Below, in pieces: positions 390 through 59,320 of a DNA stretch of 64,000 bases. The position numbers and the translations under genes were made by a program. Where the stretch lies: the NCBI RefSeq assembly GCF_041381155.1, contig NC_091142.1, forward strand, positions 35,761,604-35,825,603, given 5' to 3'. Below the pieces are notes generated by a model, which made no database searches, was not told where the DNA came from, and saw nothing but the letters and a program-made list of their open reading frames with translations. The stretch's first letter is position 1. Each line of letters begins with the position of its first letter. The stretch is from Argopecten irradians (Eukaryota > Mollusca > Bivalvia > Pectinida > Pectinidae).

Positions 390-3300
390 CTTTAAAAACA
401 CATCAAAACTACATTAACATTGCTCTGGTTTGATTGTGTTTGCCAACAGCCATTCTCAAAACATGTTTCATTGGAAGTATTTCGTTTACACTTTTCAGGT
501 CTATGGATTTGAAATTGCAATGTGCCAATACACCGACACTCTGATTGTACAAAATTTTAACAAACACCTGAGAACTTTAACAAAATAACAAAACAATGTT
601 CAACTGAAGTTGTTATTACAGACTTACCTTCTACTTCTAACATAAGAACTTAGTGGCACAGGAGAATGTTTCCTTCGTGACGAGGGGCTCTGTGACCTGC
701 GTGACCTTGAGGGTGGAGATGAGCCTCTATCCCGTGATTTCTTTGATGACCATGAAGAACGGTCTGAGTAGTCACTGAGACGATCTTCGTCATGAGTACT
801 GGGTGTATGAGAACGGCTGCCTATAGGTGTATCTGCTGATCCTGTGCCTCCTGTTGTAGTACAAACAAAATGTACATAAGATTTTCAATCAAACTGTTGA
901 TCAATGTAGAGCTGAAGTTGTATTTATACAGAAAGGTTCTAGTATATACACATTTTGTAGTTTAGTTAAGGATCTAAAATATACGCACTCTTAGACAAAA
1001 ATCCATAAGAAATGAAGTTGTTATACTGCTGTCAAAGCAATAGTGACTTTGAATTGACGACCCAAAAACTTTTACATGCATTATGTCTAAAGTGAAAATT
1101 CATGAAAGAATGCAGCCAGCTAACAGGTAGAAACCAACCTAATACACATACTATATCATGAATCATTCATCTAAGCCCGATGTCAAAGACAATGAGAACC
1201 CATAGCTTTTCTGACAGAGTGTAGTACTTTTAATTCCTTTTATATTTTAAATTTATCCTCATTCATCATTTTGTCTTATTACTTTTCCTCACCTGATTCA
1301 TTCATCTGATCATCGGCAGCTGGGTTTGAGGACCCTACATTGGTAGATTTGAGCATGTTGATGAACATGGCTGCCTTGCGTTTCCTTTCAGCTTGCATCT
1401 GTTTCTCCTTGTTGGCCTGGACTAGTTTCTCTCGTGCTGCGGCTGCCATTCGATCTTTAAGTCGTTCTTCAACTAACATTTAAAAAAAATATTACAAACT
1501 TTACAAAGAATTTTCAAAATCTGGAGGCAACATGCAGCAAGGTGTTGAAATATTTGTTACTTTGTTAACAATATGGTAACAGAGGTATAATTATATATAT
1601 AATGATAATACATTTAAATTTTTTTCTTTTATTTTCCCCTCCATTTTTAACCAGCTGTAGTTTAATATTTAACAATTAATAAAGAATCAAGACAACTCAC
1701 CTTGTTTTCGTTCTAACTTCTCAATTAACTCTGCTCGATCCACTCTGCTTTCTACCCTTGAGTAATCTGACCGTGAGTGGTCTGGTCGTGAATATTCTGA
1801 TCTTGAACTTTCTGATCTCATACTTTCTGTTGCCATGAAATCTGAATCTACAGGTGTTGACGTTCCAGACAGGTCTGATTTGTATGGCTTATCCCGATCA
1901 CCTACAACAGAGAAGGGTTGTTACAAAGATTCACTACATCTGTGTCGAATAGAACTGTAACAATACAAATAAGAACATGAATATGATGTGTTTCAAATTG
2001 AAATATACATACTTTCTTCGTCACTGCTGTCGTTGTCAAACACCTGTCGTTTCTCCAGTGACGTACTCTCCTGTTCTCGAGATTTGCCTTTGATGCTGAA
2101 GCTTACACCTTTTGGTCGTTCTTTTTCTAAACGTCTTTTCTCTTTGGCTGTCTCCTGTAGAAAAAAATAGGAAATGAAATATTCATCTTAAATTTATAAA
2201 TTACCCACCATAAAAAGTGTATGCAAGGGACGGAGCACCAGGTATACTGAAAGAGTCCCTGTAAATACAAACCATTCCATCATATTTCTTTTGTTACAAA
2301 ATGTAACATTCCAACAACTTACAAGTGATTAAAAATTGTAATGGCATAAGAAATGTGGTGAATGTGTGTTATGCCTATAAACTTCAATAAATAGGTGACA
2401 TTTTACAATTGTGTCTGTCGATCTGACATACTGTTTAGGATTTTCCATTTTTTCCCTTTGTCTTTTGTTTTAATATGCAAGATAATTAATTTAATGTCTA
2501 ATATTTTAAACAAACTACATAATATTACTGTATTACTGTAATACCAAGAAAACAAAAAGATTTTTTTTTTTTTCAACTTTCCAGCACAAGCTCTGATTTC
2601 TCTTTAACATTGATATTCAGATTTGTGACTTCACAACTAGATAAGCAATAAATTAAACAAACCGTCTGTTGCCTCTAGAGGAAATTTATACTTACTGTGA
2701 TATGAATATTTTTCTTGAAGTTGTAGTAAGGGTAGTGGACATGGTAGGACTCCAAGAACGCAAATCTGGGATCGTTTTTACTTTTTACAACAATTTCAAA
2801 TTCCACACCATTTTTGGCCACATACATTGCCATTCTGTCTATAACCGGCTGTAGGTCTGGCGGGGGTGGGACTACCTGTGGAGCACCAGGTATACTGAAA
2901 GAGTCCCTGTAAATACAAACCATTCCATCATATATCATATCATCTTTTAGATATACATGTACCATGCCAGGAATATTATAGCAGCTATCAAAACAAGTAC
3001 ACATTGTACTTATTAAGCTTAATTTTGTAAGTTCTACAATTAAAAATAACATTCCCTAATTGGGTATTACCTAGCTGCTATATTGTAGCTCAAAAGACAT
3101 TTAGACAGAAATGGTGTCGTCTTAAGAGCTACAATTGGCACTTATTACTGCTCATGGAGCAAAGTAACGATTATGCAAACCATTATTAAAACTTTTTATG
3201 CATTATATCGTACTTGTTTGATTTCGCTTACCTACTAGGTAAAAAAATTGAACCGTATAAAATATTAAATTCAAAAGAAGACATTATTTTTTTCTTACAT

Positions 3301-6300
3301 CTACATATGAAGATCTTTTCGAAGGAAAATTATAAGAAAGTCTAAAAATTGTGAACTTGACATCTTGTGAGCGGTACAATAGATATTAACAATAGTTGTT
3401 ATGTTTGTTTTGGACAAAAATAATATATAAATGCATGTATATACATAAATGGAAAATGGAAAGCAACAGAAAAGTATAGAAAATTGTGCTTGAGTGATTC
3501 TCTGAGGCAGTGCTCCACTAGGACACATAGGGACCATTTCGTACCCGACCGAAAGGTATAGTAGGTCCTTTACGTGTATTCGTTCTAGGTATTACCTTGA
3601 AGAGCTGTCTTCGCTGGCCGGACTGTCACGACTGAGGTAATAGTTACTGCCCAGATCTGTCCCTGGGGGTGGGGGTTGGGGCTGCTGGGCGGATGGAAGA
3701 GTGACAGGTTCCAACCCGGGCGGAAGAGGCAAATTTGGATTGGAGGGGCTGTACTCTGACGCAGACATGTAAGGAGGCAGAGGTGGTGGCTGTATGGAGG
3801 GCACTTCTTCACCGTGTCTTTCTGATCCAGAATCACTACTAACAAACAAAACATCATAATTACACAATACTGAAACATTTTACCACTTTATTCAGCTGAT
3901 CCATTAAAAAACCAAAATAATAATCATATAACAATCATTAGCATACTTATAACAATAAACAAACACTGATTTCAGGTGTCATATAGAAAATGAGAGAACA
4001 ATTAAGCTTCATCTAAGGAAATTTGATTTTCTCACTCAAGGCATAAAGGTGAACAATATAGTATACACAGTGATTTTTTTTTTTCTTTTAATTCCAGTAA
4101 AGTGGCAATGATAGGCGTTATTTCAAACAAAACAGTGGAATGGAAACCCTGGAGAAAAGCTGATAATATATATACCTGGCCTTCTCATGTTGTTTATTGG
4201 AGCGTTTGAGTGACTTGATGAGCTGTCCGTATGGAGTGTCATGGATACTAACTGCTGGCATTTTGATTGGTTTGAGGTCTGGGGTTGGTGAGGCACGCTG
4301 GATCATCAGGCTGGGATGGAGATAGCCATCTGGATGTTCTTCCTCATAGCCTGGAACACACAAAAAACACAACAAGTCATTAAACAGGTATATCCTCTAA
4401 GGAAAATAAATCTATAAATGTGTCTTCCTCATAGCCTGGAACACACAAAAAACAAACAAGTCATTAAACAAGTATATCCTCTAAGGAAAATAAATCTATA
4501 AATGTGTCACCTGTTAACCTTCACCAGCTCATATATAAAAGTTGGGCACAGATATCTGCTTTTAAAATTTACCAGCTTATATTTCATAGCTATCCCAGGG
4601 ACTTATTCTGCATTTTCATATTACAGAGTTATCTGCACTTGCCATTAGGTACCGATTGTGATGTCATATGTCTGCAAGCATAACGTCATAATTTTCGGAG
4701 AAAACAATGTGAATTGCACTCTCAAAATAATGATGTCACAATAGATACCTACCCGCAAGGGAGCTAACTTTGTAATATGCAAAGACGGAATATCTCTGAT
4801 GGCATATTTTACACATAAATGCATTGTTAGCAGTTTTTAAATACAATTTTCTCCAGGAATTTATTAAAGTCTGAAATCTAAAATAAAGCAAAATATCTTT
4901 ATTAGTTAACCATCAATTTAATACTCTATTTTTTTGTGATTTCAAATGATTACCTCATCCAATTGATATTTATTTAAGAAAAACAAACAGAATTTCAGAC
5001 TGTATACCAATTTGATCCTGTAACATGGAGACAACTTACTGCTGTCCTGTTCCTCTTTGACCTCCTCTGCCTTGGGGCGGTACTTCCCTGACTTTATCAT
5101 CTTCACCATGTGTTTGTAGTATGGATTCAGCACATTTTCAAAGTGCATGAATTCAAATTGTGAATTATTTGACTGTTTAGTTTTGATGATGATCTCCATC
5201 TGAGCACCGTGTTCTGCTATGAACTTAGCAGTCTTCTCTATGATGGCGTTCTGTTTCTCTGTTTCTGGCTGCAGTGAAGAAATTTGTAATTAGCTATAAA
5301 TATGCTCTAATAAATGTTATAATCATTATAAAGCATCAAAAGCTTTTATGTCATATCAGCAGCTATTACTGTTTTAAACATCATTTGCTATAAAGAGAGT
5401 ATTAATTTTCTTTTTCTATAATGAGAGAAATTTTCTCATGGCATGATTACAAATTGTATCTGGTTACGATGAAGATTAGATCTAAAGAGAGTCTGCCTGC
5501 CCTTCACAACGACATGGGTTTGTCACAATGCATGACCTGGATGAATTTGTTAATGTCTAGAAACAAATTATTCACCTTCAAGAACAAATACACATCAAAC
5601 CACTATGCAGCATAATCTTATAATGTTAAGGGGGCATGTCAATCATCTAGTGTATATGTAATGGATATTAACCGAAGAGTAGGTATGCATCGATTGTGAA
5701 TTATGAGCCGCGAAGTGGCCAGGGATTCACACTGCATGTGCCCAGGTTAGTATACCAATACATACCGACTCTGAGGTAAATATCCGACTTACCGCAAAGC
5801 CAAAAGTATATGTGACAAAACAGTCAAATTGTTAGCTAGTCAGTGTTGCGGATGGACTAGAAAGTGCAGGTCGAGTTCGAATCCTTGAATTGATGATTTT
5901 TCTTTTCAGTAAAAATATAATTTCCCATCTTAAAATTTGATTGGTTAATTCAATCGGAACCCTTCCTGTGATACACATTGTGTATATATACATGTAAGAC
6001 ACGACTAGCGACTGCAGGAGGATATTACTTCCAGTCTACATTAAAGTGAAGATATTTCATTTTGTAGAAAAACTGAACAACGAATAATTCAGACTACGGA
6101 TATGGAGCTAGCTGCTTTACAAAATACAGGTATACACATGTATCTAATAACATATTTAACAACATTGCATTCAATGACAGTGTGAATCATGATTTGATAT
6201 CAGAATTGTTTTTTATTATTATTATGAAAATAGCTTGTATTTTTGTGTCTTTTTATAGATTTATTATAATAATAAGAAATAAACTTTTTAGAAACTGTGT

Positions 6301-6905
6301 ATTTTAGCTATCCTTATTTTACTGTCAATTTTACGTACATGCATGTATAATATACATTTTATGTGCCTCTGTGATCCAGACCCCCATATGCGTGCAGTCT
6401 TCCTATGTAACTGTGCCCCTGTGACCCAGACCCCCATATGTGTGCAGTCTTCCTATGTAACTGTGCCCCTGTGATCCAGACCCCCATATGTGTGCAGTCT
6501 TCCTATGTAACTGTGCCCCTGTGACCCAGACCCCCATATGCGTGCAGTCTTCATATGTAACTGTGCCCCTGTGATCCAGACCCCCATATGCGTGCAGTCT
6601 TCCTATGTAACAAACCTCTGTGGTCTTAACCATGTTCCATACCCTACAGCTATGCATAAACGCAGGTTGATAACCAAATACTAACTCATGCACATGCTCA
6701 AAACAGGTTAGTATTCCAATACTAACATGTGCTCGTGCATTGTAACAAGCAATACGTTCAATAACAACTCCAATCAAACAAAGGAGCTATGCGGTAAGGT
6801 CCTGTGATATTATTGTCATTCTGATCAGAGATATACATACCACATCTACATCTGGAGGAACATGCAACTCTGGAGGAGCCACAAATGGTTTCTCTTCTAC
6901 AGGTT
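168..6905 (-). CDS. SFSWAP: SFSWAP splicing factor (10 exons, both ends missing)
   Basis: Homologue of suppressor-of-white-apricot, a nuclear SR-related regulator of alternative splicing. Exons in transcript order: 6841-6905, 5040-5268, 4176-4350, 3596-3838, 2696-2906, 2013-2154, 1701-1901, 1293-1472, 628-850, 168-389. All have GT/AG borders and all phases agree, giving about 630 residues. The order is a KPFVAP linker, SURP1, a [10 protein letters not shown] linker, a proline-rich stretch, SURP2, a basic SFSIKGK segment, an [17 protein letters not shown] helix and an RS-rich tail, as in human SFSWAP. The N-terminal DRY_EERY region should lie beyond 6905 on this strand but was not found. The last exon ends in a donor at 168, so the C-terminus lies left of the window. 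The family autoregulates by splicing its own introns, which makes the duplicated acceptors in two introns notable. Confidence 0.93.
628..850 (-). CDS. SFSWAP: SFSWAP exon: RS domain, part 1
   Basis: A 223-nt exon encoding a serine-rich stretch, then [20 protein letters not shown] and SSYVRSR. RS dipeptides of this kind mediate protein contacts and phosphorylation in SR-family splicing factors. The SYVRSR end corresponds to human SAYRTVRRSRSRSRS. Confidence 0.88.
1293..1472 (-). CDS. SFSWAP: SFSWAP exon: charged helix
   Basis: A 180-nt exon encoding [20 protein letters not shown] and [17 protein letters not shown]. Human SFSWAP has [15 protein letters not shown]...[15 protein letters not shown]. 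This predicted helix is a reliable family marker. Confidence 0.93.
1701..1901 (-). CDS. SFSWAP: SFSWAP exon: serine/arginine spacer
   Basis: A 201-nt exon encoding a series of short [17 protein letters not shown]-like repeats followed by [14 protein letters not shown]. The sequence is low complexity and poorly conserved. The call rests on phase continuity, clean splice sites and the start of the coiled segment that continues in the next exon. Confidence 0.85.
2013..2154 (-). CDS. SFSWAP: SFSWAP exon: basic segment after SURP2
   Basis: A 142-nt exon encoding [30 protein letters not shown] and [12 protein letters not shown]. The SFSIKGK plus acidic DDSxEEES order matches human ISFAIKAKEND...DDDSEEDEES. 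Confidence 0.88.
2231..2285 (-). repeat. Detached copy of the SURP2 exon acceptor edge
   Basis: About 55 bp here repeat, almost without change, the last ~28 intron bases, the acceptor and the first ~28 coding bases of the SURP2 exon (2878-2933). It lies in the following intron, in the same orientation, about 650 bp from the original. Confidence 0.85.
2696..2906 (-). CDS. SFSWAP: SFSWAP exon: SURP2 domain
   Basis: A 211-nt exon encoding [19 protein letters not shown], then [20 protein letters not shown] and [10 protein letters not shown]. It matches the second SURP of human SFSWAP nearly residue for residue ([20 protein letters not shown]). Its first 28 coding bases and the acceptor are copied at 2231-2285 in the next intron. 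Confidence 0.94.
3596..3838 (-). CDS. SFSWAP: SFSWAP exon: proline-rich linker
   Basis: A 243-nt exon rich in proline and serine ([45 protein letters not shown]). It sits between the two SURP domains, where human SFSWAP is also proline-rich. The acceptor reads GTTAGTAG, a NAGNAG-type tandem acceptor. Both choices keep the frame and differ by one serine, at 3838 or 3835. Confidence 0.88.
4176..4350 (-). CDS. SFSWAP: SFSWAP exon: [10 protein letters not shown] linker
   Basis: A 175-nt exon starting after TTCCAG. It encodes [18 protein letters not shown] and a basic segment [22 protein letters not shown] is the matching human segment. Its acceptor and first 13 coding bases are duplicated 85 bp upstream. 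Confidence 0.9.
4339..4508 (-). repeat. 85-bp tandem duplication across an SFSWAP splice acceptor
   Basis: The segment that contains the acceptor of exon 4176-4350 and its first 13 coding bases occurs again 85 bp away (cores at 4341 and 4426). The copies differ at a few positions. The upstream copy keeps a usable-looking TTCCAG. Splicing there would add 85 nt and reach a stop, so it is a potential poison acceptor. Confidence 0.85.
5040..5268 (-). CDS. SFSWAP: SFSWAP exon: SURP1 domain
   Basis: A 229-nt exon carrying the first SURP module. It shows [38 protein letters not shown] and an acidic tail EEVKEEQDS. The pattern of aromatic residues around the F-L/F-...-NPYY core is the SURP signature, and human SFSWAP reads almost the same here. 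Confidence 0.93.
5860..5930 (+). repeat. Possible tRNA-derived SINE fragment
   Basis: A box-B-like GAGTTCGAATCC lies about 35 bp after a weak box-A-like TTAGCTAGTCAGT in an SFSWAP intron. No clean cloverleaf can be drawn, so this is not a tRNA gene. A decayed tRNA-derived repeat is the likeliest reading. Confidence 0.3.
6363..6611. repeat. 50-bp minisatellite, five units
   Basis: Five head-to-tail units of exactly 50 bp, each containing CCAGACCCCCATATG and GTGCAGTCTTCCTATG, with only a few substitutions between them. It lies in the SFSWAP intron between 5268 and 6841. The unit shows no exon sequence, unlike the junction arrays elsewhere in the window. Confidence 0.93.
6841..6905 (-). CDS. 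SFSWAP: SFSWAP exon: linker before SURP1
   Basis: A 65-nt exon with acceptor TTTGCAG and donor GTATGT. It encodes [19 protein letters not shown], close to the human KPFVAPLGLSVPSDVELPP segment just before SURP1. It enters with a two-base remainder and leaves in phase 0. It is the most 5' exon that I can support. Confidence 0.85.
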
Positions 6906-11525: not shown

Positions 11526-12658
11526 TAGCTCACCTGGTTCCAAAGGGCTGAGTGAGCTTTTCATGGGATAAATAATGCAGCGTCCGTCGTCCGGCGTCAA
11601 TCCCCGTCCGTACAGAAATTTAACCTCATCCTTATTGGGTCCGGATTCAAAGCATTGGCTACAAATGATTGGTGCTACCCCCCAGGGGCCGAGGGGCGGG
11701 GTCAAAATGAGGGTCAATTTGGCTATTTCCATATAAAACTTCTTCTCTGAAACTGAGATAGCACCCATAATGCAATGGTAGCATCCTTATAGGTGGGGAT
11801 TCAAAATTGTACAAATTGATGGGCTGACCCCCCCGGGGGCCTGGAGGGGCGGGCCAAAGGGTTCAATTTGGCTATTTCCATATAAATCAACTTCTAAGTC
11901 TCTGAAACCAAGCATGGGATTAGCACCCATAATGCAAATGGTAGCATCCTTATAGGGTGGGGATTCAAAACTTGTACAAATGATTTGGGCTGACCCCCTT
12001 CGGGGCCTGAGGGCGGGTCAAAAGGGGTCAATTTGGCTATTTCCATATAAATCGTTCTTCTCCTAGATTCTATGCATGATTTAGTCACCAATAATTGGCA
12101 ATGGTAGCATCCTTATAGAGTGGGGATTCAAAATTGTACAAAATGATAGGGGGCTCTGACCCCCCAGGGCCTGAGGGGCGGGGGTCCCAAAAGGGGAATT
12201 TGAGCTATATTCCATATAAATCGACTTCTTCTCTGAAAGTTCTGCAATGGATATGTAGCCACCCAAAATTATGGCATCCTTATGGTAACATCCTGATATA
12301 GGGTGAGCCGGGATTCAGCAGATTTGTACAAATTGGGCTCTGACCCCCCTTTTGGGGCAATTTGAGGGCGGGGTCAAAATTCCTCATACGGGGCCAATTT
12401 GGCTATTTCCATATAAACGACTTCTTGTCTGAACTAAGTGGGATGCATGTAATGCAATGATGTAAATCCTATATAGGTGTGCTACTTTCAAAGATTTTGG
12501 GTGGGCAGGGCTGACCCCCCCCCCGGGGCCCTAATAGGGGCGGAATTTCAAAAGCGGTCAATTTCTTCAGAAAAGAAAAATGAACTTGTATTCTCTCTGA
12601 ACTTAACTTGGCATTACACTCCAGGTGCAATGCGATACAGGCCCTCTGGGCCTCTTGT
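11526..12658 (+). mobile_element. Non-autonomous element with ~157-bp satellite core (degraded copy)
   Basis: It starts TAGCTCACCTGG with a short (CGTCC)n stretch and ends with the palindrome AGGCCCTCTGGGCCT plus CTTGTT. In between lie about five poorly preserved ~157-bp monomers (GGCTGACCCCCC, GGCTATTTCCATATAAA, GCAATGGTAGCATCCTTATA). It is the same family as 28828-31290. The layout resembles the pearl/Helentron-like elements of bivalves, but no diagnostic terminus proves the class. It has no protein. Confidence 0.75.
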
Positions 12659-20946: not shown

Positions 20947-23900
20947 GTACGTCTGAGCTCGCGTAACAGGACGTGACAGTTTCCAGGGCAACCATTGGAT
21001 TAGTGCTTTAATGATATCTGTATATTCTACCACTTAATACCACATTAACAGCATTTACATTTGGATTTGCTGATACTGATCTAAAATTTGGGTCAATTTG
21101 TTCTAACTAGAAGATAAGATAAAGGCAGATATTTGTAGTAGAGAAGAAATCAATGTCAAGTATTGAACAAAACAATGCTTATTTGACAATTTAGAATGAA
21201 GAATTTATAATATCAATGTTCTGTCTTTGTGTTTTTCGAAAGGATTAAAAAGATGAAAGAGACCAAAAAAAATTCAGGATACAATTAAACGATTATTTTC
21301 TTTTTTCTACAGGGGACCCAAACGCTTATGATATTACAATGGACGATGATGACCGCATGGCACTCATGTTGATGGTCAAGGAGGGCAAGATTACTACAGA
21401 GCATGCCCTGCAAGTGGTCAGTGGAAATTGGCCGGACGGCACAATTGTAGGACTGACCTCTCATTAAATCTCACTGCTTTCTCTTGTTTTTCTTTGCTTG
21501 TTGTGGGAATCAGAGATTCATATCAAATTTACACAAAAAAAAAATCATAATTCCATTAACTCTGAAAAACTTAACAGTGTGGCTATTTATAATACAGATG
21601 GAGTAATCATCCTGAAATATAAATGTATGAATTTCAATTTTGATGCAAGGGTCTTAGAGATTCTTCTTTTCTTCAAAAAATTCACAGAATCCCTAATCAA
21701 ATGAAATCAATGAAAGGTACTTGAATAAATTGATTTTGATAAAAGGATTTCATCTTCCCATAAAACGTAAATGTCAAAATGGCCATGGCTCAGCTCATTT
21801 CTGACTGATGCAGCCCTTAAAAATCACAAAAAAAAAAACATTTTTTTCCATAAAATGTAAAATCATAGCATTCAATATTGATCTAAACCATTACAATTTC
21901 TTGTCCTTGCCATGATAATTGAATGATGGTGACATGTAGTCTGTCCATTCCTATAGTGTCCTATCCTGTCCTGTCCTGCATTCATATATGAAGACATATC
22001 ATATGTCTTTCAGACACTTCTACAAAAAATTCAAGAAAACTTTTCACCCAATAAGTTGACACATATGCTGTAAGTTCTTGTATATTCAGCGATGTATCAA
22101 ATTTTAAAGAATCAATATATATTTGATATGAATGGTAAAATAAACGCACAGCAATCGTATTAAGACTGACAATAAGAATGATGAAATTGATAGCTATTTG
22201 AATTTTCTATGTTTCAAAGTGTTTAAGGTCAGTATTTATTCCCATATAACTCTATGTTCATATTTTTCATCACAGGTAAAAAAAATACGAGGAAGAGAGA
22301 CGGAAAGACATAGAACAGGTGAGTTGAGCGACTTCCTGAAATTGGTCAATTTCCTTTTAAAAGACAGTATAAATCAAACGTATAAAACTGACAGCTTTGT
22401 GGTTACTACAGATTCTTATATCACCTGACTTAAATTGTCTATTGTCTCTGACCTTGCCATTGTAATTTTGCATCACCTATCCATTTGTTGTCTCAAACAA
22501 TTATTGTTATTGTTATATCTTAAGAAGTCTAAGATTCCATATATTGGTCCCAGTTGAACCTCATTTACTGATAAAATTTTGAGATGAATGAGAAAATGAA
22601 GATGAAAAAATAGAGCAAGGATTTTATCTTCTTGATAGATTTACTACCGACACAATAATTGATCCCACAGAGAAATTAGAGGAGATCAAATGTACATAAC
22701 AAGGTTATAGTAGAAATCTCTCGGGAATCTTTTAACTGTCTACACATTTATGTTATCACACGGAAAAATCTATACTATGTATTTCAGAGGGAGAAGGCCA
22801 TGAAAAAGAAGAAGAAATTACCTAAGCCTGTAAAATCCCCATCAGCTACCTGTACTGGTGAGTACTTCAAATTGCATAATGTAAAAATACTTATTATAGC
22901 AGTAGGCCTAGTTTTATTTTAGTGCTTTTTGTACTGAAAAGGAAACACTAATTTATGTACAGCACTAAATTGTGTTAAAAGAGTATTTCCAGTATTGAAC
23001 CAATGAGTTAATTATAATTTACTGTTTTCGCATTTGTGCTTATGAAGTGCAAAATTTCATATTCAGATATAATCATATTCAATGAAAATCTGTTAAAATT
23101 TCATGATTAGCAGCAGTACATTATCTTGACTCTTTTCAGGTTCAGCTGCGCGCTGTGAGGTCTGCTCTGGCTATAAGGGTTCCCCACACGACCTTGGCTA
23201 CCCTGTGGGCAATGTTTGTGTGGACCCCACACATCAGATGGAGTATAGCCAGCACCGTCGTGTACACAGTGTGGGACACATCGACCACGCCTACTCACCC
23301 CGGTCCCCAGAGGGCACACGCTCACTGAACTGTACCCCTACTCACTGTGCCATGAGCCGATCGTCGGCAGTCAGTACTCCTGTCAGTTTCTACTCCCCAG
23401 GACACCACCCTAAACTTTACTCCCCAGTATTCCCACAGGATCCACGCCTGTCGCACTACCAGTGTCGGTCCTGTACACATCACCAGCACAGCCCCGCGGG
23501 GAGTGTCCCGGGGCGCTGTCATACAGCCCTGGGTGTGCGTATCAGTCAGAGTGGGTCATCCTCTGGGGGTGGCGCGGGACGACCTATCACCTGGTGGGGA
23601 GGCCAGTCGGTCAGGATCATGTGTGGACCATTCCCCCTCCACTACCTCCTTTGATTTAGTCTCCTCTGAGTCGGAACATTCTATAGACTGTCAATCACAT
23701 GGCCACGCCCCCCATAACCATGCGGCCAATCACAGGGAGAGTGGCCACTACCTCAGTAATACTGGTGCAATATCTACAAACCATGGAAACAAGTCGCCCC
23801 ACGGAGTTTGGCAGAAAACCAATCGGGACACAAATAGTCGTAACCATGTCAAGGTAAGATAATTCTGTGTGAATACCTTAGTTACAGAAAACCAGTCGGG

Positions 23901-42615: not shown

Positions 42616-42670
42616 TCATCCTAGAAAGGCGTGCAGGTTATCATCACTGTATCCTATGTCTTTAGCTAAT
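42616..42670 (-). CDS. CYB5R4: CYB5R4 last exon
   Basis: A 55-nt terminal exon encoding LAKDIGYSDDNLHAFLG and TGA. Human ends LLHDLNFSKNEIHSFTA. The split codon CA|A (Gln) joins the previous exon in phase. Confidence 0.9.
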
Positions 42671-45600
42671 CTGGAGAAACAAACACAGAAAAGGTTTACA
42701 ATGATTAAATGAAATACTTTGGCACATGGCATTTAAATCAGTTACCTGGCAACAATATAAACCTTTACTGTCAGTGTTTGTCAATACTGTATTAAAATTC
42801 ATTTTTCTGTCAGTGATTTAAATTGTTTACACAAATATTATCATCAAAGTAAAATCCACATATTGTCTGCCCATTTTTTAAAGGTATTTTAATTCACTTT
42901 TTTATGACCAAAAAGTAAATCTCTGTTTTAAAACTGAAACTACAAAATGTTGGAGAAAGTTGGTTTACTGAAGTTTGAGGACGCTCCCTGATATACTTAC
43001 TGTATAACAGTCTTAGTAAATGGTGTAGGGCCACAGGCACATATAAGGGTGTCTGTTTTGGCCTCTGTGAATGGACTAAAACTTGTCATCAGATCCTCAC
43101 AGATCCGCCCGTGAGAACCTGTCCAGCTGCTACCTGGCTCCGATAGTACATATTGCACTGAAAACCTGTAAAAAAGATAAAATAGTTGGGTATAGTTACT
43201 TTATTACCATTAGATAAGTTCCAATAAATTATTTTAGATTTACCCATTTTATGGTGTTTTTGTTTATACACAAGTTACTTTATGATATTCATGAAATAAG
43301 TTACTAATCATGTTTGTGCATGAGAAGTCAAAGTCTATGTGATTGGAAAATTACTAAAGTAAAACATATTTATAACGAACATGTTTACAACCGAATCGTG
43401 ATTATAATGTAGCAATTTTTCGTTACCTGTCAAGGTTCCTATAAACTATGCTTATATTGAAGTGATTTTGTTGGTCCCAAAGGTTTGCTATAACCATGTT
43501 TTACTATACTCTGATATCTATTTCTGGAATCTTGTGAAAGGCAAGTCTATTACATTGCCATCTGATCATGGTTGACTGAATTACTTACCATTCATTTTTC
43601 TCTGATATATTCTGTCTAGGTGCTCTCTCCATAATATGTCATCTTCCGTTTTATTGAAAAACATTTAATTTGACTTTCCTGGAAAAAAAATGTTTGAAAA
43701 CCATTATGATATAATTTTTTATTCAATCCATTTTTATATCTCAACAAAATATTTGATACATGGATATAATCTGAACAAGAATTTCCACAGAAATGAATGT
43801 CATCTACAAATTAATTTAATTACAATAAGAGGCCCAGAGGGTCTGTATCACTCACCTGTTATTTTTAGCAATTATCACAAAAACTGTTACAATTAGAAAT
43901 CGCAAAATTGACCCCACAATTTTGAATCCCAACAATAATGATGAATACCATATGACTATGAGTGTTATTAAAATGAGAAGTTTCAGAGAAGAAGTTTTTT
44001 TTTATATGAATGTTGACATATTTTGGAATTGCCCCTCAGGCCTCAGGGTCAGCCCCATATCATTTGTACAATTTTTGAATCCCTAACCTATAAGGATGCT
44101 ACCATTGCATTATGAGTGCTATTCCATGCTTAGTTTCAGAGAAGAAGTTGTTTATATGAAATTAGCCAAATTGACCCCTTTTGGCCCTTTAGGGGGATCA
44201 GCCCGACAAATTCATACAATTTCAGTAGCTCATAAGGATGCTATCAGTCAAATTTTGTTAAATTCCGACCAGCTGTTATGGAGAAGAAATTGATTGTTGA
44301 CGAATGCAGGGCACCAGAAACCACGGTATCGCATAAGCTCAACTGGTCCGAAGGAAAGTGAAATTGAAAGTGAGGCTGAAACCTTACCTATTGGTGTTTT
44401 GTGATAAACAGTGGTTGATTAGTCCCACCATCGGCGTGAAGCCTGTTCCAGCAGCATACATGATGAGGTCACCTTGCCCATCGAGTCGACTTTCTCTGAA
44501 GTTTCCCTCATACTGGCTGACTTCTATAGAATCACCTACAATACATCACAGAACATGATTTATAATCATCACACTTTGATAAAGTTCTTTTAATACATTT
44601 AAAGGTATGCAAGATTTTGGTATATAGCTACCATGAGGAAAATTTCAATTTAATATTAGGTTTATATAATTGTGATATGAAATATCTAATAAAATCATCG
44701 TTAACTTACCTGGCCTTAACGAGTTTATCCATGGAGTTATCGCTCCGTCCGTGTAAATCTTGATCATTAAGTAGAACACCTTTCCCTGCGTTAGCCGATG
44801 GTCAGTGTCTTGTGTCCCGAGCAAGGGCTGGACGACTGTGTAACTTCGCTCTACCATCACACCTGGAATAAACAATGGTTAAGCTTATTAAGGGTGTATT
44901 CTGTACAGCATGGTCTTTGTAAAGCACTTCCCAATAATCATATGTCCAATCTTTGTTTCTGAATACTTATATCATAATTTTACCTGCATGTGTTTAATCA
45001 AAACTATATCTCTGAACAATGAAAGGCACATAGGCATTATTAGTCACTTAAGTTCAGAAATAAAACGTAAAAGTTTAGTATTTTTAAGTTTTCAAAATAA
45101 TATCTACATATTAATTTGGTAAGGTTATTCCATGTTTGAAAGCCAGTGTTACTCATAGATGTGCCAGGTTTTAGTGGTAGAAGAAGCCAGAGTACCAAGA
45201 GAAAATCACAAACCTACGGTTTTAACCTGACAACTACCTATGCAGGTTCCCAATATAAGAACCTGAGGTGATTGTCAGTGGTGAAATTCTGGGACACTTT
45301 AACCACATGGCCACAATATTCCTCTACATCTTTGTGAATATGTACAGAAAACTAAGTATGGTAGTCATACTAGATGTGTCAGAAATATACATACATACAG
45401 ACAAAGTCTTTAGATGGTACTGACATTACTTACCCTCGACATTGTGACGTACATGTACATGGTAACCGACAGGTACACACATACAGGTGCCAGGAGGCAG
45501 ACTTACACACAAGAGCTTTGTATCATGGTTAACAGAGACAACGGATTCCAAATGGCAGCTTACTATTATACCAAACCTAGAAAACAACAATTACATGTAA

Positions 45601-47598
45601 TTACAGATGACATAGAGCAGCTTCTATATACCAAACCTAGAAAAACAACAATTACATGTAATTACAGATGACATAGAGCAGGCTTCTACATACCAAACCT
45701 AGAAACAACAATAACATGTAATTACAGATGACATAGAGCAGATTCTATATACCAGACCTAAAAAACATCAGTTACATGTAATTACAGATGACATACAGCA
45801 GCTTCTATATACCAAACCTAGAAACAACAATAACATGTAATTACAGATGACATAGAGCAGATTCTATATACCAGACCTAAAAAACATCAGTTACATGTAA
45901 ATTACAGATGACATACTGGCAGCTTCTATATACCAAACCTAGAAAACAATCAATGACATGTAATTACAGATTGACATAGAGTAGCTTCTATATACCAACC
46001 TAGAAAACGACACACATAAACAACAGATTACAAAATGGCAGCTTCTATATACCAAACCTAGAAAAACATCAATTACATGTAATTAACAGATGACATAGAG
46101 CAGATTCTATATACCAAACCTAGAAACAACAATTAACATGTAATTCGCAACAGATGACATAGAGCTGCTTCTATATACCAAACCTAGAAACAACAATAAC
46201 ATGTAATTACAGATGACATAGAGCAGATTCTATATACCAGACCTAGAAAACAACATCATTTACATGTAATAACAGATGACATAGAGCAGATTCTATATAC
46301 CAGACCTAAAAAACATCAGTTACATGAAATTACAGATGACATACAGCAGCTTCTATATACCAAACCTAGATAAAACATCAGTAACATGTAATTACAGATA
46401 ACATAGAGCAGATTCTATATACCAAACATGGAAAACAACAATTACATGTAATTACAGATGACATAGAGCAGCTTCTATATACCAAACCTAGAAAACGACA
46501 CACAGAAACAACAGATTCAAAATGCAGCTTCTATAACAAAACCTAGAAAACATCAGTTACATGTAACTACAGATGACAAGAGCAGCTTCTATATACCAAT
46601 CCTAGAAAACAACAATTACATGTAATTACAGATGACATAGAGCAGCTTCTATATACCAAACCTAGAAAACAACAATAACATGTAATTACAGATGACATAG
46701 AGCAGCTTCTATATACCAAACCTAGAAAACAACAATAACATGTAATTGCAGATGACATAAAGCAGCTTCTATATACCAATCCTAGAAAACAACAATTACA
46801 TGTAATTACAGATGACATATAGCAGCTTCTATATACCAAACCTAGAAACAACAATTACATGTAATTACAGATGACATAGAGCAGATTTTCTATATACCAA
46901 ACCTAGAAACAACAATAACATGTAATTACAGATGACATAGAGCAGATTCTATATATCAGGACCCTAAAAAACATCAGTTACATGTAATTTACAGATGACA
47001 TACAGCAGCTTCTATATACCAAACCTAAGCAAAACAGTAAATTTACGTGAAACTGCATTTATTATCATACAATTGACATCATCTTCATACATTGTATATC
47101 AAATCTGTATGTATAATAAATCTTAAAACAGCGATTAAATGTTTTTAATATCATGTTAGAAACAAAGGACCTGATAGAAGTACATAAAAGTTCAGAAAAA
47201 TTTATATAGCTTAAGTCATTTGATTTCGAAACGAGAACTGTAGAAAAGATCAATACAAAATAACATTGGCATGTCTGAGTAACTGAAAAACTCAATAAAG
47301 GGCCATAAACTATCCTTTGATAATTCAGAAATAATGCCTAAACATCGAGCCTGTAAGAAATCTAACTGTATTAACCAAGTTTTTAAAGAAAACCTCTACA
47401 CTTGTAAGAAAAATAGATTTTTATATGTATGAACTGTAGGTTTTTCTACTAATGTAAATAATTTTGTTACCTTTATCATTTGTCGGTGTGTAGGAGCTAT
47501 GTCCGTCCAGTGAACTTGCCCAGTCCACGCCACGTGCTGTCCTGTGGTCTGTTTCTGTAACACTAACTCTGTCTTCCCTGTCTGTTTCTGTACCGTCA
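42616..47598 (-). CDS. CYB5R4: CYB5R4-like CS/cytochrome b5 reductase (7 exons, 5' part missing)
   Basis: Homologue of Ncb5or/CYB5R4, an ER-linked NAD(P)H reductase that passes electrons through FAD to a cytochrome b5 module in lipid metabolism. Exons in transcript order: 47471-47598 (CS domain), 45434-45576, 44710-44862, 44388-44535, 43589-43678, 43001-43165, 42616-42670. Seen motifs: flavin-binding ERSYT, nucleotide-binding AAGTGFTPM, CGPTPF, and the C-terminus DDNLHAFLG then TGA. The N-terminal cytochrome b5 domain (HPGG) was not found, so it lies in undetected exons or is absent. Exons 45434-45576 and 43589-43678 need small frame corrections. Two introns are filled with junction-derived arrays. 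Confidence 0.9.
43001..43165 (-). CDS. CYB5R4: CYB5R4 exon: NADH-binding lobe with CGP motif
   Basis: A 165-nt exon encoding FSVQYVLSEPGSSWTGSHGR, then TDTLICACGPTPFTKTVIQ. CGPTPF is the conserved cysteine-glycine-proline motif of the b5-reductase nicotinamide site (human CICGPVPF). Confidence 0.93.
43589..43678 (-). CDS. CYB5R4: CYB5R4 exon: KVKLMFFNKTEDD (two offsetting shifts)
   Basis: A 90-nt exon with good splice sites. The exon length fits both neighbours, but the internal frame does not. With one A fewer after KVKL it reads MFFNKTEDDILWREHLDRI, identical at its core to human KVKLMFFNKTEDDIIW. With one A more near the end it reads QRKNEW and joins FSVQYVL. Two offsetting homopolymer errors are the simplest reading. 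Confidence 0.8.
43827..44354 (-). mobile_element. Short copy of the ~157-bp-core element
   Basis: Inverted relative to the copy at 28828. It starts AAGAGGCCCAGAGGGTCTG and ends ACGGTATCGCATAAGCTC...GGTCCGAAGG, with only about two core monomers between. It lies wholly inside a CYB5R4 intron. The terminal foldback is partly lost. Confidence 0.75.
44388..44535 (-). CDS. CYB5R4: CYB5R4 exon: nucleotide-binding AAGTGFTPM
   Basis: A 148-nt exon encoding DSIEVSQYEGNFRESRLDGQ, then GDLIMYAAGTGFTPMVGLIN. Human has VSSPEGNFKISKFQELEDLF then LLAAGTGFTPMVKILN. The GTGFTPM loop binds the NADH pyrophosphate. Confidence 0.94.
44710..44862 (-). CDS. CYB5R4: CYB5R4 exon: FAD-binding RSYT and LMIKIY
   Basis: A 153-nt exon encoding VMVERSYTVVQPLLGTQDTD, then GKVFYLMIKIYTDGAITPWI. 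RSYT is the family's RxYT flavin motif (human KPYTPVS), and LMIKIYxxGxxTP matches LIKIYPTGLFTP. Confidence 0.93.
45128..45318 (-). repeat. tRNA-headed SINE
   Basis: On the minus strand it reads GGCCATGTGGTTAAAGTGTC (tRNA-like head), then GTAGTTGTCAGG, ACCGTAGGTTTGTGATTTTC, GGTACTCTGGCTTC and CCACTAAAACCTGGCAC. It is the same family as the copies at 7015 and 11196 and sits in a CYB5R4 intron. Confidence 0.75.
45434..45576 (-). CDS. CYB5R4: CYB5R4 exon: start of reductase fold
   Basis: A 143-nt exon encoding CHLESVVSVNHDTKLLCVSL, then PPGTCMCVPVGYHVHVRHNV (human LISKEDVTHDTRLFCLMLPP and VPVGQHVYLKL). Its first 15 bases carry two extra nucleotides compared with the array copies of the same edge. 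The array copies give GLVYRSC, matching human GLYYRKC. The genomic exon gives FGIIVSC instead. Confidence 0.85.
45577..47035 (-). repeat. ~60-bp array carrying the CYB5R4 exon acceptor edge (~24 units)
   Basis: On the minus strand each unit has an intron end TTGTTTTCTAG, about 20 coding bases GTTTGGTATATAGAAGCTGC, and about 30 bases including CATCTGTAATTACATG. Units at about 46020 and 46505 keep a longer piece of the exon (CTGCCATTTTG), which shows the exon is the source. Single units vary by substitutions and small indels. Confidence 0.92.
47471..47598 (-). CDS. CYB5R4: CYB5R4 exon: C-terminal half of CS domain
   Basis: A 128-nt exon encoding TVTVQKQTGKTELVLQKQTT, then GQHVAWTGQVHWTDIAPTHR. 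Human has VVESVGKIEIVLQKKENTSW in the CS (p23-like) domain between the b5 and reductase parts. It enters with a one-base remainder. Its end (AAG, phase 0) does not fit the next exon without a one-base change. Confidence 0.8.
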
Positions 47599-48867
47599 CT
47601 GTAAAAGGGGAGACAACCACATGTATCACAGAAATCAGGGGAAACAAACACATTTTCTCGTACACATCAACTTAATACTTAAGAAATGCAGCATAAATTT
47701 TTCTCATATTGACGACAGCGGGGCAAACCTTACTGTATTGGAGTGCCCAACTTACACAAACTAATGCAATGTACCTAATGCAGTCATTGTCAGAGACCAA
47801 CGGCTGATCGCACTACACTTAGCAACACTTACAGGATGATAAAGTGTAGCGTAGTGCAAGTGCGATCAACTGTGGTGTTTCTGAGGGGATGTCCCACGCA
47901 CGTTTTTGTTCACAGTGGAAACAACAAAATATTTCTATTGAAATGACCTTAACACAGTTTCAACTGTGACAGATTGACAGCACTTAACTATCAAATACCA
48001 TTTAGTATTTAAATAGGGACATAATAACAGATCAAGTATCATCTAAAATCATATATACGGACAACCATTATGTCAGTATAATGTTAAACGTTATTTAACC
48101 GTTCATATTCATCAGTGATGTCATTCTTCAACATCTGTCAAAATAACAAATCATAATTTGCCCCCCCTTACCAACACCAACATTGATAATCACATTCAAA
48201 ACAGTGTAGTAGTACATCAGCAGAACCTAATTAATCTCCAAAGATAGAGACAGTGGATCTCAAATATAACGGGTCAAAATTCTTAAGTTGTAAAAGACTC
48301 TGCATGACCCTCAACGTTTGACCAGCCTAAAGTAAGGTAATCTGACACACAAAGGTTGAGATTGTTTCTGGGTTATTTCCATCAAGGCGGAGGAATGATT
48401 ATATTCCATCTTACCCCAAATTATGATGTGACTGAAATTGATCATAGATATTGTTCGATATCATTGTATTGATGGAACTTGCATGACATGAAACTTTTTC
48501 TTGTCATTGTTAAGAAAGTCACAACAGTTCATTAGCACTTTCAACATAGGGGTGACGGTCTTACAGAAGGAATGTTACAATTTCACTAAGTAATCCAACA
48601 CTCATTAAACTGATGTCTATTCCTGGACTAAGGTAGATACTCCTCACAACAATGAAAGGTACAGACCTGACAGTTAACTCATTTTACTGGTCATACACCA
48701 GGTACAACTACGGCGACCAAAAAAGAATCAGGACTAATAACCTTCAAAACAACTTCAATCCACTATGTCCAAAATTATTTGTATAAAGTCCTGCAAAATA
48801 ATCTGAACAATAAATTAGAGGTCTTACCCAAACATGCCAAAATCTACATTAACACACTCATCTACCT

Positions 48868-50345
48868 ATATGTATGGTGAAGGTATGGTCCTCTATATAC
48901 ACGCACAGACTGTCAGTACATACCTACATGTATGGTGAAGGTATGGTCCTCTATATACATGCAGACTGTCAGTACATACCTTATATGTATGGTGATGGTA
49001 TGGTCCTCTATAAACATGCAGGCTGTCAGTGCATACCTATATGTATGGTGAAGGTTCCACTAATGGTCCTCTATAACACATCCCCATGACAGCTGTCAGT
49101 ACATACCTAGATGTAATGGTGAAGGTATGTCCTCTATATACACACAGGCTGCTTCAGTACATACCTACATGTATTGTGAAGGTATGGTCCTCTATATTAC
49201 ACCCAGACTGTCAGTACATACCTACATGTATTGGTGAAGGTATGGTCCTCTATATAACACCCAGACTGTCAGTACATACCTGTATGTATGGTGACGGTAT
49301 GGTCCTCTATATACACACAGGGCTGTTCAGTTCATACATACCTACATGTATTGTGAAGGTATGGTCCTCTATATATACCACACAGGACTGTCAGTACATT
49401 ACCCTATATGTATTGTGATAAGGTATGGTCCTCTATATACACCCAGGCTGTCAGTACATACCTATATGTATGGTGAAGGTATGGTCCTCTATATACACAC
49501 CAGGCTGTCAGTTACATACACTATATGTATTGTGAAGGTATGGTCCTCTATATACACCCAGGACTGTCAGTACATACCTATTATGTATGGTGAAGGTATG
49601 ATCCTCTATATACACACAGGACTGTCAGTACATACCTATATGTATGTGAAGGTATGGTCCTCTATATACACCCAGGCTGTCAGTACATACCTACATGTAT
49701 GGTGAAGGTATGGTCCTCTATAAACATGCAGGCTGTCCCAGTGCATACCTATATGTATGGTGAAGGTATGGTCCCTATATATACACACAGGCTGTCAGTG
49801 CATACCTACATTGTATGGTAATGTAGGTCATGGTCCTCTATATAAACCCAGGCTGTAAGTACAGTAACCTACATGTATGGTGAAGGTATGGTCTCTATAT
49901 TTCACTGGCTGTTGTTCAGTCATTACCTACAGGTATGGTGAAGGTATGGTCCTCTTTGGTCCTCTATATACACCCAGGCTGTCAGTACACATACCTACAT
50001 GTATGTTGTGAAGGTATGGTCCTCTATATACACCCAGGTCTGTCGATACATTACACTACATGTATGGTGAAGGTATGGTCCTCTATATACAACACAGGGC
50101 TGTCAGTACATACCTACGATGTACCTCTATGGTGAACTAGGTATGGTCCTCTATATACACCCAGGAAACTGTCAGTACCATTACCTACATGTATGGTGAA
50201 GGTATGGTCCTCTATATACACCAGGCTGTCAGTACATACCTACATGTATGGTGAAGGTATGGTCCTCTATATAACCCAGGCTGTCAGTACATACCTACAT
50301 GGCTGTCAGTACATACCTATAGTATGGTGAAGGTATGGTCCTCTA
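48868..50345 (-). repeat. ~57-bp array carrying a CYB5R4 CS-domain junction (~26 units)
   Basis: On the minus strand each unit reads ACTGACAG, about 42 bases beginning CCTGGGTGTATATAGAGG, then GTATGT. The 42 bases translate as WVYIEDHTFTIHV, which resembles human CYB5R4 IIKDYLYLIHI in the CS domain, and the remainder G fits the next exon in phase. One unit may be the real exon, but I cannot tell which. The units vary mainly by short indels. Confidence 0.85.
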
Positions 50346-50399
50346 TATTCACACCCAGTTATAGATTTTCAAATATATGGTCCTCTATTTATCAGTATC

Positions 50400-55031: not shown

Positions 55032-55364
55032 CTATCACCGACTGGGAACACAGGGGGCCAACTCAATGAAAATGGATGTTGTCATACATTATTTTGTATT
55101 TGGAGGATGGACTGATGAGTATATATGACAGTCATGTGATTTTTTTTTCAAAAAATACGAGATTTGAAAAATTATTAAAAAATCGGCATATTTACTAATA
55201 TTTACTAAATCGGGATTTTTTAATAATTTTTCAAATCTCGTATTTTTTGAAAAAAAAAACACATGACTGTCATATATACTCATCAGTCCATCCTCCAAAT
55301 ACAAAAAAAAAATGTATGACAACATCCATTTTCATTGAGTTGGCCCCCTATCACCGACTGGGAA
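55032..55364. repeat. 296-bp foldback flanked by 17-bp direct repeats
   Basis: Arms 55053-55200 and 55200-55348 are almost perfect inverted copies over ~145 bp each, with a very short centre (TTTACTAATATTTACTAA). CTATCACCGACTGGGAA stands at both ends (55032-55048 and 55348-55364). No coding sequence is present. Confidence 0.9.
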
Positions 55365-55848: not shown

Positions 55849-56046
55849 CTTCGCATACCAAGACACGTTCGACCCACTGTATACGGTCTTTAGCGATACC
55901 ATATTTATTATTGCAGCTAACCTAAACATAATGATTGGTTCTAAATCTCACCCGAATGTACAGATGAGTACATCGTTAAATTGTGCCGTTTTTCTGGCGC
56001 GAAAGATGGCGTTATTTTGTAATAATTACGTCACAATGCCTTTGTA

Positions 56047-57094: not shown

Positions 57095-59128
57095 GTAAGC
57101 ACATTACATGGTTCCCAGGGAGACCTGACATGATTATGTATGTTTGCCATTTGCCATCTAGCAGCATTCATTTTGACCCGTTTCGAGTTTCACTTCTGAT
57201 CGCCTCCTCATCACCCCTGTTATAGGTTCTGTTAATAAGTCAGAATACTATAAAATACCATCCTCGATATTCCTGGGGTTCCGTTCACTTACTATCTCTA
57301 CACCCCTGGACTATCTCATAGTGAAATTGAAGGCAGCTCAGCGGAAAACATTTGACCAATCACAGGCTAGCAAAGATTTCCTTTGAAAACTACAGAGAAA
57401 GCGACGCTTAAAGTTGTATTTCTGGTAATTTTCACTGTAACGATACATTGCTTAAACATTTGATATTTGAACATGCACATGTAACTTATTGATTATGCTC
57501 CCCAAAAGAATGTGTCGGCCTATAAGTCCCTGGTTTTGAATACAGCGCCTTCAATCACCGCCATGTTCAGTACCTTCGGCTTTTGTCGGCATTCCGAATC
57601 GTACCACGTGACTTATGCCTACACGTCCTGTACGTGGTGATCCAGGTAACTAGCGTAAGCGCACATGTGTTTGTTTATGTTTTCCTTCTGGCTAATATGA
57701 GCAAATCATGCTGGTATATGTCCACAGAGCGAGTATTTGAAACATCTACATGTAATTCACCACATTGCCGTAATTCAATATTGTGGGTATCAAATATTGT
57801 AATGTGCAAGCATTATTTTTCTTTGTAGATCCAGTCTGCTGAGGTCGACCGCATGTTTTGTTTATGAAAAAAAAATTGTTGACATTTGGTTTCACAACTC
57901 TCGTGTTACTTCGAGATTGTCGCGACGATGTTCGGAAGAGTTCGGAAATGAGTCGGCATCTTTCGAGTTTAATTTTGACGTGTACACGTTAAAAAGATTT
58001 TTTACTTCTATAATTAAAAATCCTTGCAGTGCTGCAACTTTGTACAAAAGTTTGCCTCCAGTTTTACTATGAGATAGTTCAGGGGTGTATAGAGATCGTA
58101 AGTGATCGGAACCCCTGGAGTGTCGAGGATGGTAAAATACAAGCACATATGTGTATGTAGTGTGCGTTGTTAAAATAGTATCCTTATGGGTCAGCGTCTA
58201 TGTAAATATTCTTAATGCATAAGGAAACACCAATGACGGAACCCAACCAAAGGTATGGAATATTTATAAGTATCACTGTAAAATACAATCGAAATGTCAA
58301 AACATCTGTTTCCAAGTGGCTGGACTAAAGCTGAAGTGATCGTATGCTATTGGATTTTCAGAACTGAGAGGTGGGAAGTTACAAGTCCAGCATCGTTTCT
58401 TGTAGCAATCATTTGTGGGAAATAAAATGTTGAATATGATGTCATCATAATTAAGTATACAATGTAGCTAAACGACCATAAAATGAAGTTTGCTCTCACA
58501 GAACAGCTCACTCTGCAGTTAGACAAGAACCCACAGATAGACGAGGTGTTGATATATTTACTAATGAGATGTAGCCGGAAGCTGAGACATATGCAACTCT
58601 GCTGCCAACTGGCCGTCTCTACGATCGACCGAATACGTCTTTCTTCTGCTACATAACTACCTTCGTAAGTAGCGAGAGCTTAGGGTATCTACCGGGACTT
58701 GACATGTTACAGTGGGAAAAACCTAATAATTCCACTATATTATCGTTGGGCCATTTAGTTGAACCATGTGTGTTTAGCACGCTGGTAGTCAAAGACCCAC
58801 TATAGACTAATTAGTATACAGCAGGTCTTTGACTTACCAGCGTAAAACACAGTCTGGTTTAACATTTTGGCAGAGCAGGGTATGTCAGATCCCGTTCTCA
58901 ATACATGTATTACAAATGTCTATTTAAAAGATCGTGAATCTTTACATTATTGACTATTCTCATATTTTTCCTCTTTCCGTGTACAGTTATTGTGTGAATT
59001 TGTGTGATTTTAACGTTACAGATTTGCACACTATGAGTTTGAGCATTCACGGCCTAAATGAACATGAATGGCACCGACTGCGGCAAATACAACAGCCTCT
59101 TATCAACGCTATCAACAGGATGCCCTAA
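56047..59128 (+). CDS. FBXO39: FBXO39-like F-box gene (2-3 exons)
   Basis: Substrate-receptor candidate for an SCF ubiquitin ligase. Exon 1, 56047-57094, is 349 codons. The F-box is at about residues 24-65 (WNNLPDVLVIQIYGYL, then ACVCRRWRDLFYTPSLWRRR). Leucine-rich-like repeats follow, including LEHSWHFWISRNKVIGALCR, as in human FBXO39. Exon 2 starts at 58502 and a candidate last exon lies at 59022-59128. In-frame reading of exon 2 stops at 58656. Reaching exon 3 needs either a weak donor at 58637 or a frame change before the strong donor at 58665. Exon 1 alone is certain. Vertebrate FBXO39 is about 440 residues, close to the sum of the three exons. Confidence 0.83.
57262..58133. mobile_element. 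TIR element, CCATCCTCGATA family, in F-box intron 1
   Basis: About 75-bp inverted ends: CCATCCTCGATATTCC...GGGGTTCCG...CACTTAC on the left is mirrored at 58060-58133. It is about 870 bp and non-coding. Conserved sub-terminal phrases include GACCAATCACAGGC and CAAAGATTTCCTTTGAA. Fragments of the same family recur at 38671 and 59952-60860. The superfamily is unknown to me. Confidence 0.75.
58502..58656 (+). CDS. FBXO39: F-box gene exon 2 (end uncertain)
   Basis: After CTCTCACAG it reads EQLTLQLDKNPQIDEVLIYL, then LMRCSRKLRHMQLCCQL and STIDRI. This aligns with human TLQKLTCEF...[32 protein letters not shown]. The phase fits exon 1. The coordinates given run to the in-frame stop; a splice at 58637 or 58665 is possible. 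Confidence 0.72.
58758..58863. repeat. ~105-bp hairpin in F-box intron 2
   Basis: The arms GTTGAACCATGTGTGTTT...CGCTGGTAGTCAAAGACC and GGTCTTTGACTTACCAGCG...GGTTTAAC pair over ~40 bp with a few mismatches and a loop of ~20 bp. It could be a tiny foldback transposon or a source of hairpin RNA. Confidence 0.7.
59022..59128 (+). CDS. FBXO39: F-box gene candidate last exon
   Basis: After CGTTACAG it reads LHTMSLSIHGLNEHEWHRLR, then QIQQPLINAINRMP and TAA. The position and charge pattern suit the FBXO39 C-terminus (LQEIYRKYRKLIESELN), but identity is weak. Its end is repeated downstream. Confidence 0.55.
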
Positions 59129-59320
59129 AATGTATAGGAAACGGCAAATTTAACAGCCTCTTATAAATATCAACGCACGCCACCAACGGGAGGCTCTAAA
59201 GATTCATCGGAAACGTCAAATACAACAGTCACTTAACGCCACCAACGGATTGATCTAAAGATTTATCGGAAATAGCAAAATAACCCTTCTCTCATCAACG
59301 CCATCAACGGGAGCTATGCT
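59080..59320 (+). repeat. ~60-70-bp array carrying the F-box stop-codon edge
   Basis: Four degenerate units. Each contains the last coding bases and stop of the preceding exon (CAAATACAACAGCCTCTTAT, then AACGCCATCAACGG and CTAAA) with ~20 UTR bases. The first unit is the coding end itself. Confidence 0.75.

Follow-up and report, generated by a model that had tools for sequence, protein, structure and literature searches.

Six tandem arrays in a 64-kb stretch of the bay scallop (Argopecten irradians) genome have a splice junction of their host gene inside the repeat unit. The stretch that was analysed, here called the window (G000:C9:35761604-35825603, in an assembly of 845.76 Mb), holds 14 arrays of 20 bp or more after merging of overlapping rows from Tandem Repeats Finder (TRF). 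Splice sites and protein homology place a junction within the unit of six of these, one in SFSWAP, three in SASH1 and two in CYB5R4. With head-to-tail units of 36 to 85 bp, all six fall in the size range of minisatellites or variable-number tandem repeats (VNTRs; ~10 to 100 bp), and each unit includes a genuine host-gene splice site, as in the human IFI6 minisatellite. We think it likely that the arrays are young minisatellites of the ordinary sort, each founded by a duplication that happened to straddle a junction, and that the clustering of six cases reflects chance or a local effect. A first-pass annotation of this DNA had listed at least eight exon-border arrays in four genes; exon edges are indeed found inside the units of six arrays in three genes, and two of the listed items, at 2231-2285 and in a putative F-box gene, did not hold up.

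Splice junctions within the repeat units

Exons were located by protein homology, with P0121 and P0122 used to place SASH1, P0001 to place CYB5R4, and P0145 and P0146 to confirm the SFSWAP exon; the SFSWAP model in the window is a 100% match to P0145, a record from A. irradians itself. The edges of the F-box gene, whose identity is putative, were set by reading the sequence alone. All 62 exon edges catalogued in the four genes have a GT or AG no more than 9 bases from where homology or reading had put them. The SASH1 and CYB5R4 region also has a second copy on C1, from which we fetched 70 kb (42,550,001-42,620,000).

In SASH1, on the plus strand, two arrays cover a 5' splice site and one covers a 3' splice site. 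The first (23812..24030; TRF, splice sites and C1) has three copies of a 73-bp unit made of 42 nt of exon end and 31 nt of intron, with the exon edge at 23853; the third copy has AT in place of GT, and the exact splice-site core is kept in two of the three. The 3' splice-site array has 69-bp units and is divided by an inserted element (28830-31290). Its left part (28490..28829; TRF and blastn) has three direct copies of the exon edge and, beside them, one inverted copy (28530-28574) that is also present on C1, and its right part (31291..31395; splice sites) has two copies and terminates in the true exon, with its edge at 31372. The core is exact in three of these five direct copies. The third array (31558..31808; TRF) has seven copies of a 36-bp unit, with the exon edge at 31569, and AGGTAGGT is intact in all seven; it is open in the frame of the exon across the seven copies (open reading frame [ORF] 31369-31830; 31558-31830). 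Two coding minisatellites, with 15-bp and 57-bp units, were also seen in SASH1 (window 35012-35080 and, on C1, L007 1119-1402).

The two CYB5R4 arrays lie on the minus strand and have 25 copies each by alignment. The 3' splice-site array (45555..47042; TRF and P0001) has a 60-bp consensus unit containing TTTTCTAG|GTTTGGTATATAGAAGCTGC, with the exon edge at 45576; the sequence is rich in insertions and deletions (indels), the core is exact in 12 of the 25 copies, and the units are open in frame over several copies (ORF 46567-46854). The 5' splice-site array (48861..50364; TRF, P0001 and C1) has units of 56 to 58 bp that comprise the last 49 nt of the exon (LTAWVYIEDHTFTIHV) and 7 nt of intron (GTATGTA), and its core is exact in 7 of 25 copies, again in indel-rich sequence. 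The true exon of this array is missing from the window; on C1, the exon RFDWYQ...TIHV directly adjoins the first unit, and after in-frame joining of the next exon the donor reads CATGTAG|GTATGT by eye (C1 compared with P0001). In a Pecten maximus protein, P0003, the exon at the acceptor array appears by eye to extend 18 residues into the intron, and the five positions that overlap the would-be next exon-edge copy do not match it. Since P0003 appears to lack a match to a second exon-edge copy, the acceptor array is probably lineage specific and younger than the split of Argopecten from Pecten.

The SFSWAP array has 2.1 copies of an 85-bp unit on the minus strand (4334..4508; TRF, P0145/P0146). 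The unit contains the 3' splice site TTGTGTGTTCCAG|GCTATGAGGAAGA, in which the bar marks the exon edge at 4350; the 26-bp cores at 4338-4363 and 4423-4448 are identical, and the exact site core is present in both copies. No second copy of this array was found in the assembly. For comparison, an SFSWAP intron also holds an array whose unit contains no exon edge (6362..6611; TRF, 50 bp x 5).

All five SASH1 and CYB5R4 arrays recur on C1, so they are real and are not local assembly artefacts. Copy numbers in the window and on C1 are equal for three of the five (3.0 and 3.0 for the 73-bp unit, 5 and 5.1 for the 69-bp unit, 24.5 and 24.6 by this count for the 60-bp unit) and differ for two (7 and 5 for the 36-bp unit, 25 and 42 for the 56- to 58-bp unit). 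These two arrays would thus vary in the manner of VNTR alleles if, as the sequence suggests, the window and C1 copies are allelic. Exact cores on C1 number 2 of 3 (73 bp), 4 of 5 (69 bp), 5 of 5 (36 bp), 15 of 25 (60 bp) and 14 of 42 (56 to 58 bp, where the core was set slightly shorter than in the window).

In every junction array, the true exon closes off one outer end and the extra copies are on the intron side; for the CYB5R4 donor array, this arrangement is seen on C1 only. The fraction of copies that keep the exact splice-site core ranges from all of them (36-bp array) to one third (56-bp array). The protein records P0001 and P0121 (short-contig records, taken as transcript derived) show each exon edge just once, and in P0001, P0121 and P0145 the exons flanking each array are joined without added sequence. 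We propose that a founding duplication of 36 to 85 bp happened to cross a splice junction and that, because one intact exon and one intact splice site would remain, splicing would continue and the array would not be purged. The array could later grow by slippage or unequal exchange, and in a minisatellite-rich genome six such cases may come to cluster by chance or through a local effect. With up to ~40 near-identical exon edges beside the true exon, these loci are a natural test of how the spliceosome chooses a site, and two locus copies that differ in copy number make that choice testable.

The two items that did not hold up are of another kind. The SFSWAP edge copy reported at 2231-2285 is a lone dispersed duplicate, not a tandem one (2232..2285, minus strand; blastn), that covers a 3' splice site with the start of its exon; it matches its source near 2880-2936 (acceptor at 2906) over 57 bp at 98% identity and an offset of 648 bp, with an identical 47-bp core. 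The F-box repeat reported at 59080-59320 as an exon-border array is a degenerate four-copy repeat (59075..59324, plus strand; unit alignment) across the coding end, with 12.8% substitutions and 8% indels relative to a unit guessed by eye. It was rejected as a junction array because it spans the stop codon and no splice junction is visible in its unit. A 1.16-kb duplication with 77% identity (12692-15779) and a ~300-bp palindrome with 92% identity (55052-55349), both perhaps remains of mobile elements, were also seen in the window.

Junction arrays counted against chance and against the rest of the genome

The first-pass annotation had held that junction-spanning arrays are commoner than chance, and this is upheld by a random-seed model and not by a coverage count. 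In the seed model, each array was collapsed to one unit and the seeds were dropped at random, with arrays of <20 bp left out and the position of the CYB5R4 donor approximate. For all 14 arrays, 0.88 junction arrays were expected and 6 observed (P for at least six, 1.2e-4), and for 12 arrays, leaving out two 158/163-bp element arrays, 0.57 were expected (P = 5e-6). On C1, five of eight arrays in the gene span contain a junction, compared to 0.41 expected (P = 8e-6); this count takes noncoding, nonelement arrays with a period of at least 30 bp, leaves out coding arrays, element or satellite arrays and those outside the gene span, and uses some junction positions taken directly from tblastn ends, without adjustment to GT/AG. 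These counts weigh against ordinary minisatellites placed by chance, as does the difference between the window and the outside sample described below (Fisher's P = 0.024, 0.013, 0.015 and 0.15 at the 5%, 2%, 1% and 10% levels, respectively), and that sample is small, was drawn without regard to genes and contains element-like and probably coding arrays; a gene-confined bias could therefore escape it. By coverage, arrays make up 12.5% of the window and 7.8 of the 62 junctions would be expected inside them, compared to 4 observed (5 if the right part of the split SASH1 3' splice-site array is included), which is no enrichment. The assembly holds ~13,200 windows of 64 kb, so at P values of 5e-6 to 1.2e-4 between 0.07 and 1.6 equally extreme windows are expected.

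The alternative that best survives, and which we regard as improbable, is that exon-intron borders are preferred sites of minisatellite birth or retention in scallops, through transcription- or splicing-coupled breaks, template switching or a selected exon copy that reseeds the array. In its favour, six of the seven TRF arrays that lie within genes and are 20 bp or more, with element-internal and coding arrays excluded, contain a junction, compared to 0.83 expected when seeds are placed inside gene spans (P = 1.4e-5). The excess persists without the CYB5R4 donor array (five of six, 0.72 expected, P = 1.1e-4) and among ten intragenic local duplications found by blastn, with inverted pairs and element repeats left out (7 observed, 1.59 expected, P = 8.4e-5), and the C1 count given above points the same way. 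The inverted 69-bp unit and the 57-bp dispersed copy at 2232-2285 hint at template switching; the inverted unit is a single case and was not accepted as proof of it. However, all of these counts are post hoc and come from one window, and the C1 arrays belong to the identical locus and are not independent. Microhomology at junctions is not in excess either: direct repeats of 8 bases flank a fraction of 0.11 of junctions (n = 54), compared to 0.155 of random intronic sites (n = 600), and 6- and 7-base repeats are likewise rarer at junctions. The six units also share no common secondary structure, with one of them (SFSWAP, z = -2.24) below a z score of -2.

Arrays sampled elsewhere in the genome show no excess of splice motifs. 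Splice-site matrices were trained on 26 donors and 27 acceptors, with array junctions excluded, and a unit was scored as having a strong motif if its site reached the strength of the top 5% of nonarray stretches of equal length. At this level, 6 of the 14 window arrays have a strong motif, and they are exactly the six junction arrays. The outside sample of 40 arrays covered 14 random 10-kb stretches (part of 160 drawn) and four 10-kb flanks on C9, 18 stretches and 180 kb in all. Strong motifs were found in 5 of these 40 arrays, compared to 3.9 expected, and the counts at other levels were 8 (7.6 expected) at 10%, 1 (1.6 expected) at 2% and 0 (0.8 expected) at 1%. Earlier matrices that included the array junctions gave 2 of 40 for donors and 2 of 40 for acceptors at the 5% level, and in two hits from these matrices that were read by eye, no exon was seen at the border of either array. 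Given no motif excess in the 40 sampled arrays, a genome-wide bias as large as that in the window is unlikely. The general process favouring exon-edge duplication that the earlier annotation had suggested thus finds no support in this small check of the genome, where the rate is at background. Very long arrays of 60-bp and 69-bp units were also seen (L034 2416-9920, with 11.4 plus 113.1 TRF copies, and L021 4-3318, with 48.4); the units are multiples of three and open by eye, and may encode repeat proteins.

Tolerance, which the same annotation had offered as the reason why such duplications persist, accounts for their not being removed and cannot yield an excess: it prevents a deficit only, and does not make junction arrays commoner than harmless intronic ones. 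An excess over intronic arrays would require a mutational bias or anchoring by a selected exon copy, which is possible at low probability, and a weak, local or gene-confined bias toward exon edges is compatible with the data. We give still less credence to the stronger proposal that borders are true hotspots in scallops or in some gene neighbourhoods, with an exon copy anchoring and reseeding an array of decoy sites and junction arrays far commoner than intronic ones. Were a genome-wide excess demonstrated, it would suggest a form of mutation coupled to gene structure; none is seen in the sample.

A possible splicing function, assembly quality and an inserted element

It is quite unlikely, to our minds, that the arrays are functional and supply alternative splice sites, as in human IFI6. 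The donors of the 36-bp array are intact in all seven copies and its units are open in frame, so that use of any copy as donor would add 12 residues per unit, and several 60-bp units are open as well. However, the extra units are absent from the P0121 and P0001 records, and the 73-, 69-, 85- and 56-bp units, read by eye, shift the frame or carry stops.

Quality of the assembly bears on the very slight chance that the arrays are artefacts. The window and C1 are 99.2% identical over 10.4 kb (18393-28829), 99.15% over 5.1 kb (33180-38240), 94.2% over 10.1 kb of indel-rich sequence (40274-50301) and 80 to 91% in pieces that lie from 7.8 to 18.4 kb. The 70 kb from C1 have SASH1 exons that run from amino acid (aa) 185 through the C terminus of P0121, apart from a short exon (aa 520 to 531) that fell below the cut-off for listing, and CYB5R4 exons covering aa 1 to 531 of P0001, including aa 1 to 213, which are missing in the window. 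For SFSWAP, the exon for aa 156 to 177 was located in the window, and aa 1 to 155 of the Pecten record P0146 had no match in the assembly among the 13 matches listed at an E value of 0.001. From ~7.8 kb on, the window therefore seems to be the C1 locus in a second haplotype, misjoined to SFSWAP; that it is a real recent duplication is the weaker reading. The probable chimeric join lies at ~6906-7777, where the N-terminal exons of SFSWAP and SASH1 are lost, and it truncates three gene models.

This join, with both N termini missing, favours the artefact explanation, as do the indel-rich CYB5R4 donor array of the window (insertions over deletions, 68:17), frame-breaking indels relative to P0001 in coding exons beside the CYB5R4 arrays, and the use of PBJelly with PacBio reads to fill gaps in one published A. 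irradians draft (PMC7090048), from which the window may or may not derive. Coding exons show single-base indels, with frames read by eye against P0001 and P0121, at 47471-47598, 45555-45576 and ~23560. The coding indels and the insertion excess in the donor array look like uncorrected long-read sequence. Against an artefact, C1 holds all five SASH1 and CYB5R4 arrays and has the right exon attached at the CYB5R4 arrays, its CYB5R4 arrays are cleaner (insertions/deletions, 1/13 and 2/12), and variant copies with linked substitutions recur. What is doubtful is the exact copy numbers and the SFSWAP-SASH1 join.

The element that divides the SASH1 3' splice-site array (28830..31290, plus strand; TRF and comparison with C1) is a Helentron-like nonautonomous element of the HINE type, with ~12 internal 158-bp repeats (12.4 by TRF) in its centre. 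Comparison of the filled and empty sites, in which one base is ambiguous, places it in a run of T without a target-site duplication, and it is absent from the C1 copy, where the 69-bp array is contiguous, which makes it an insertion difference. Related pieces lie near 11627-12632 and 43824-44302. The element matches the description of the oyster Cg_HINE Helentrons, which are nonautonomous, have central tandem repeats and a T-rich target and make no target-site duplication (PMC7492417); the likeness is one of description only. Thus, the span 28497-31371 that had been annotated as one SASH1 exon-edge array does have exon edges in its 69-bp units, and a transposable element, which brings 158-bp repeats of its own, makes up most of it. 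A transposon as the origin of the arrays can be dismissed, in agreement with the earlier view that they are not one transposon, since their units are unrelated and the sole element sits within one junction array, where it was inserted, and did not give rise to the arrays.

Known repeats at exon-intron junctions

A literature search on tandem repeats at exon-intron boundaries found no genome-wide survey of such enrichment. Turri et al. reportedly described, in 1995, a minisatellite with multiple splice donor sites in human IFI6 (6-16). Published precedents exist for junction-spanning minisatellites. In human IFI6, the repeat units serve as splice donors (PMC4526556). The likeness is that a minisatellite lies over an exon end and its unit carries a splice donor. 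The IFI6 donors are used in mRNA, whereas the scallop arrays are known from DNA and protein records, and the scallop case affects several junctions of neighbouring genes, acceptors included.

Two other systems are close in structure. Human genes in segmental duplications have internal tandem repeats at exon-intron boundaries, with units of ~30 bp on average (PMC2812944), and these resemble the scallop arrays in being variable minisatellites that may sit at exon-intron borders. The human repeats create new introns or alternative transcripts, whereas in the scallop the ancestral splicing seems to be kept and the copies reach ~42. In the potato RdRp gene, a tandem duplication over an intron-exon boundary yielded a new intron (PMC4974935; reviewed in PMC3443670), and the duplicated segment likewise spans an intron end and an exon start. 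There, one duplication gave a new intron, whereas the scallop arrays have many copies, which are seemingly intronic.

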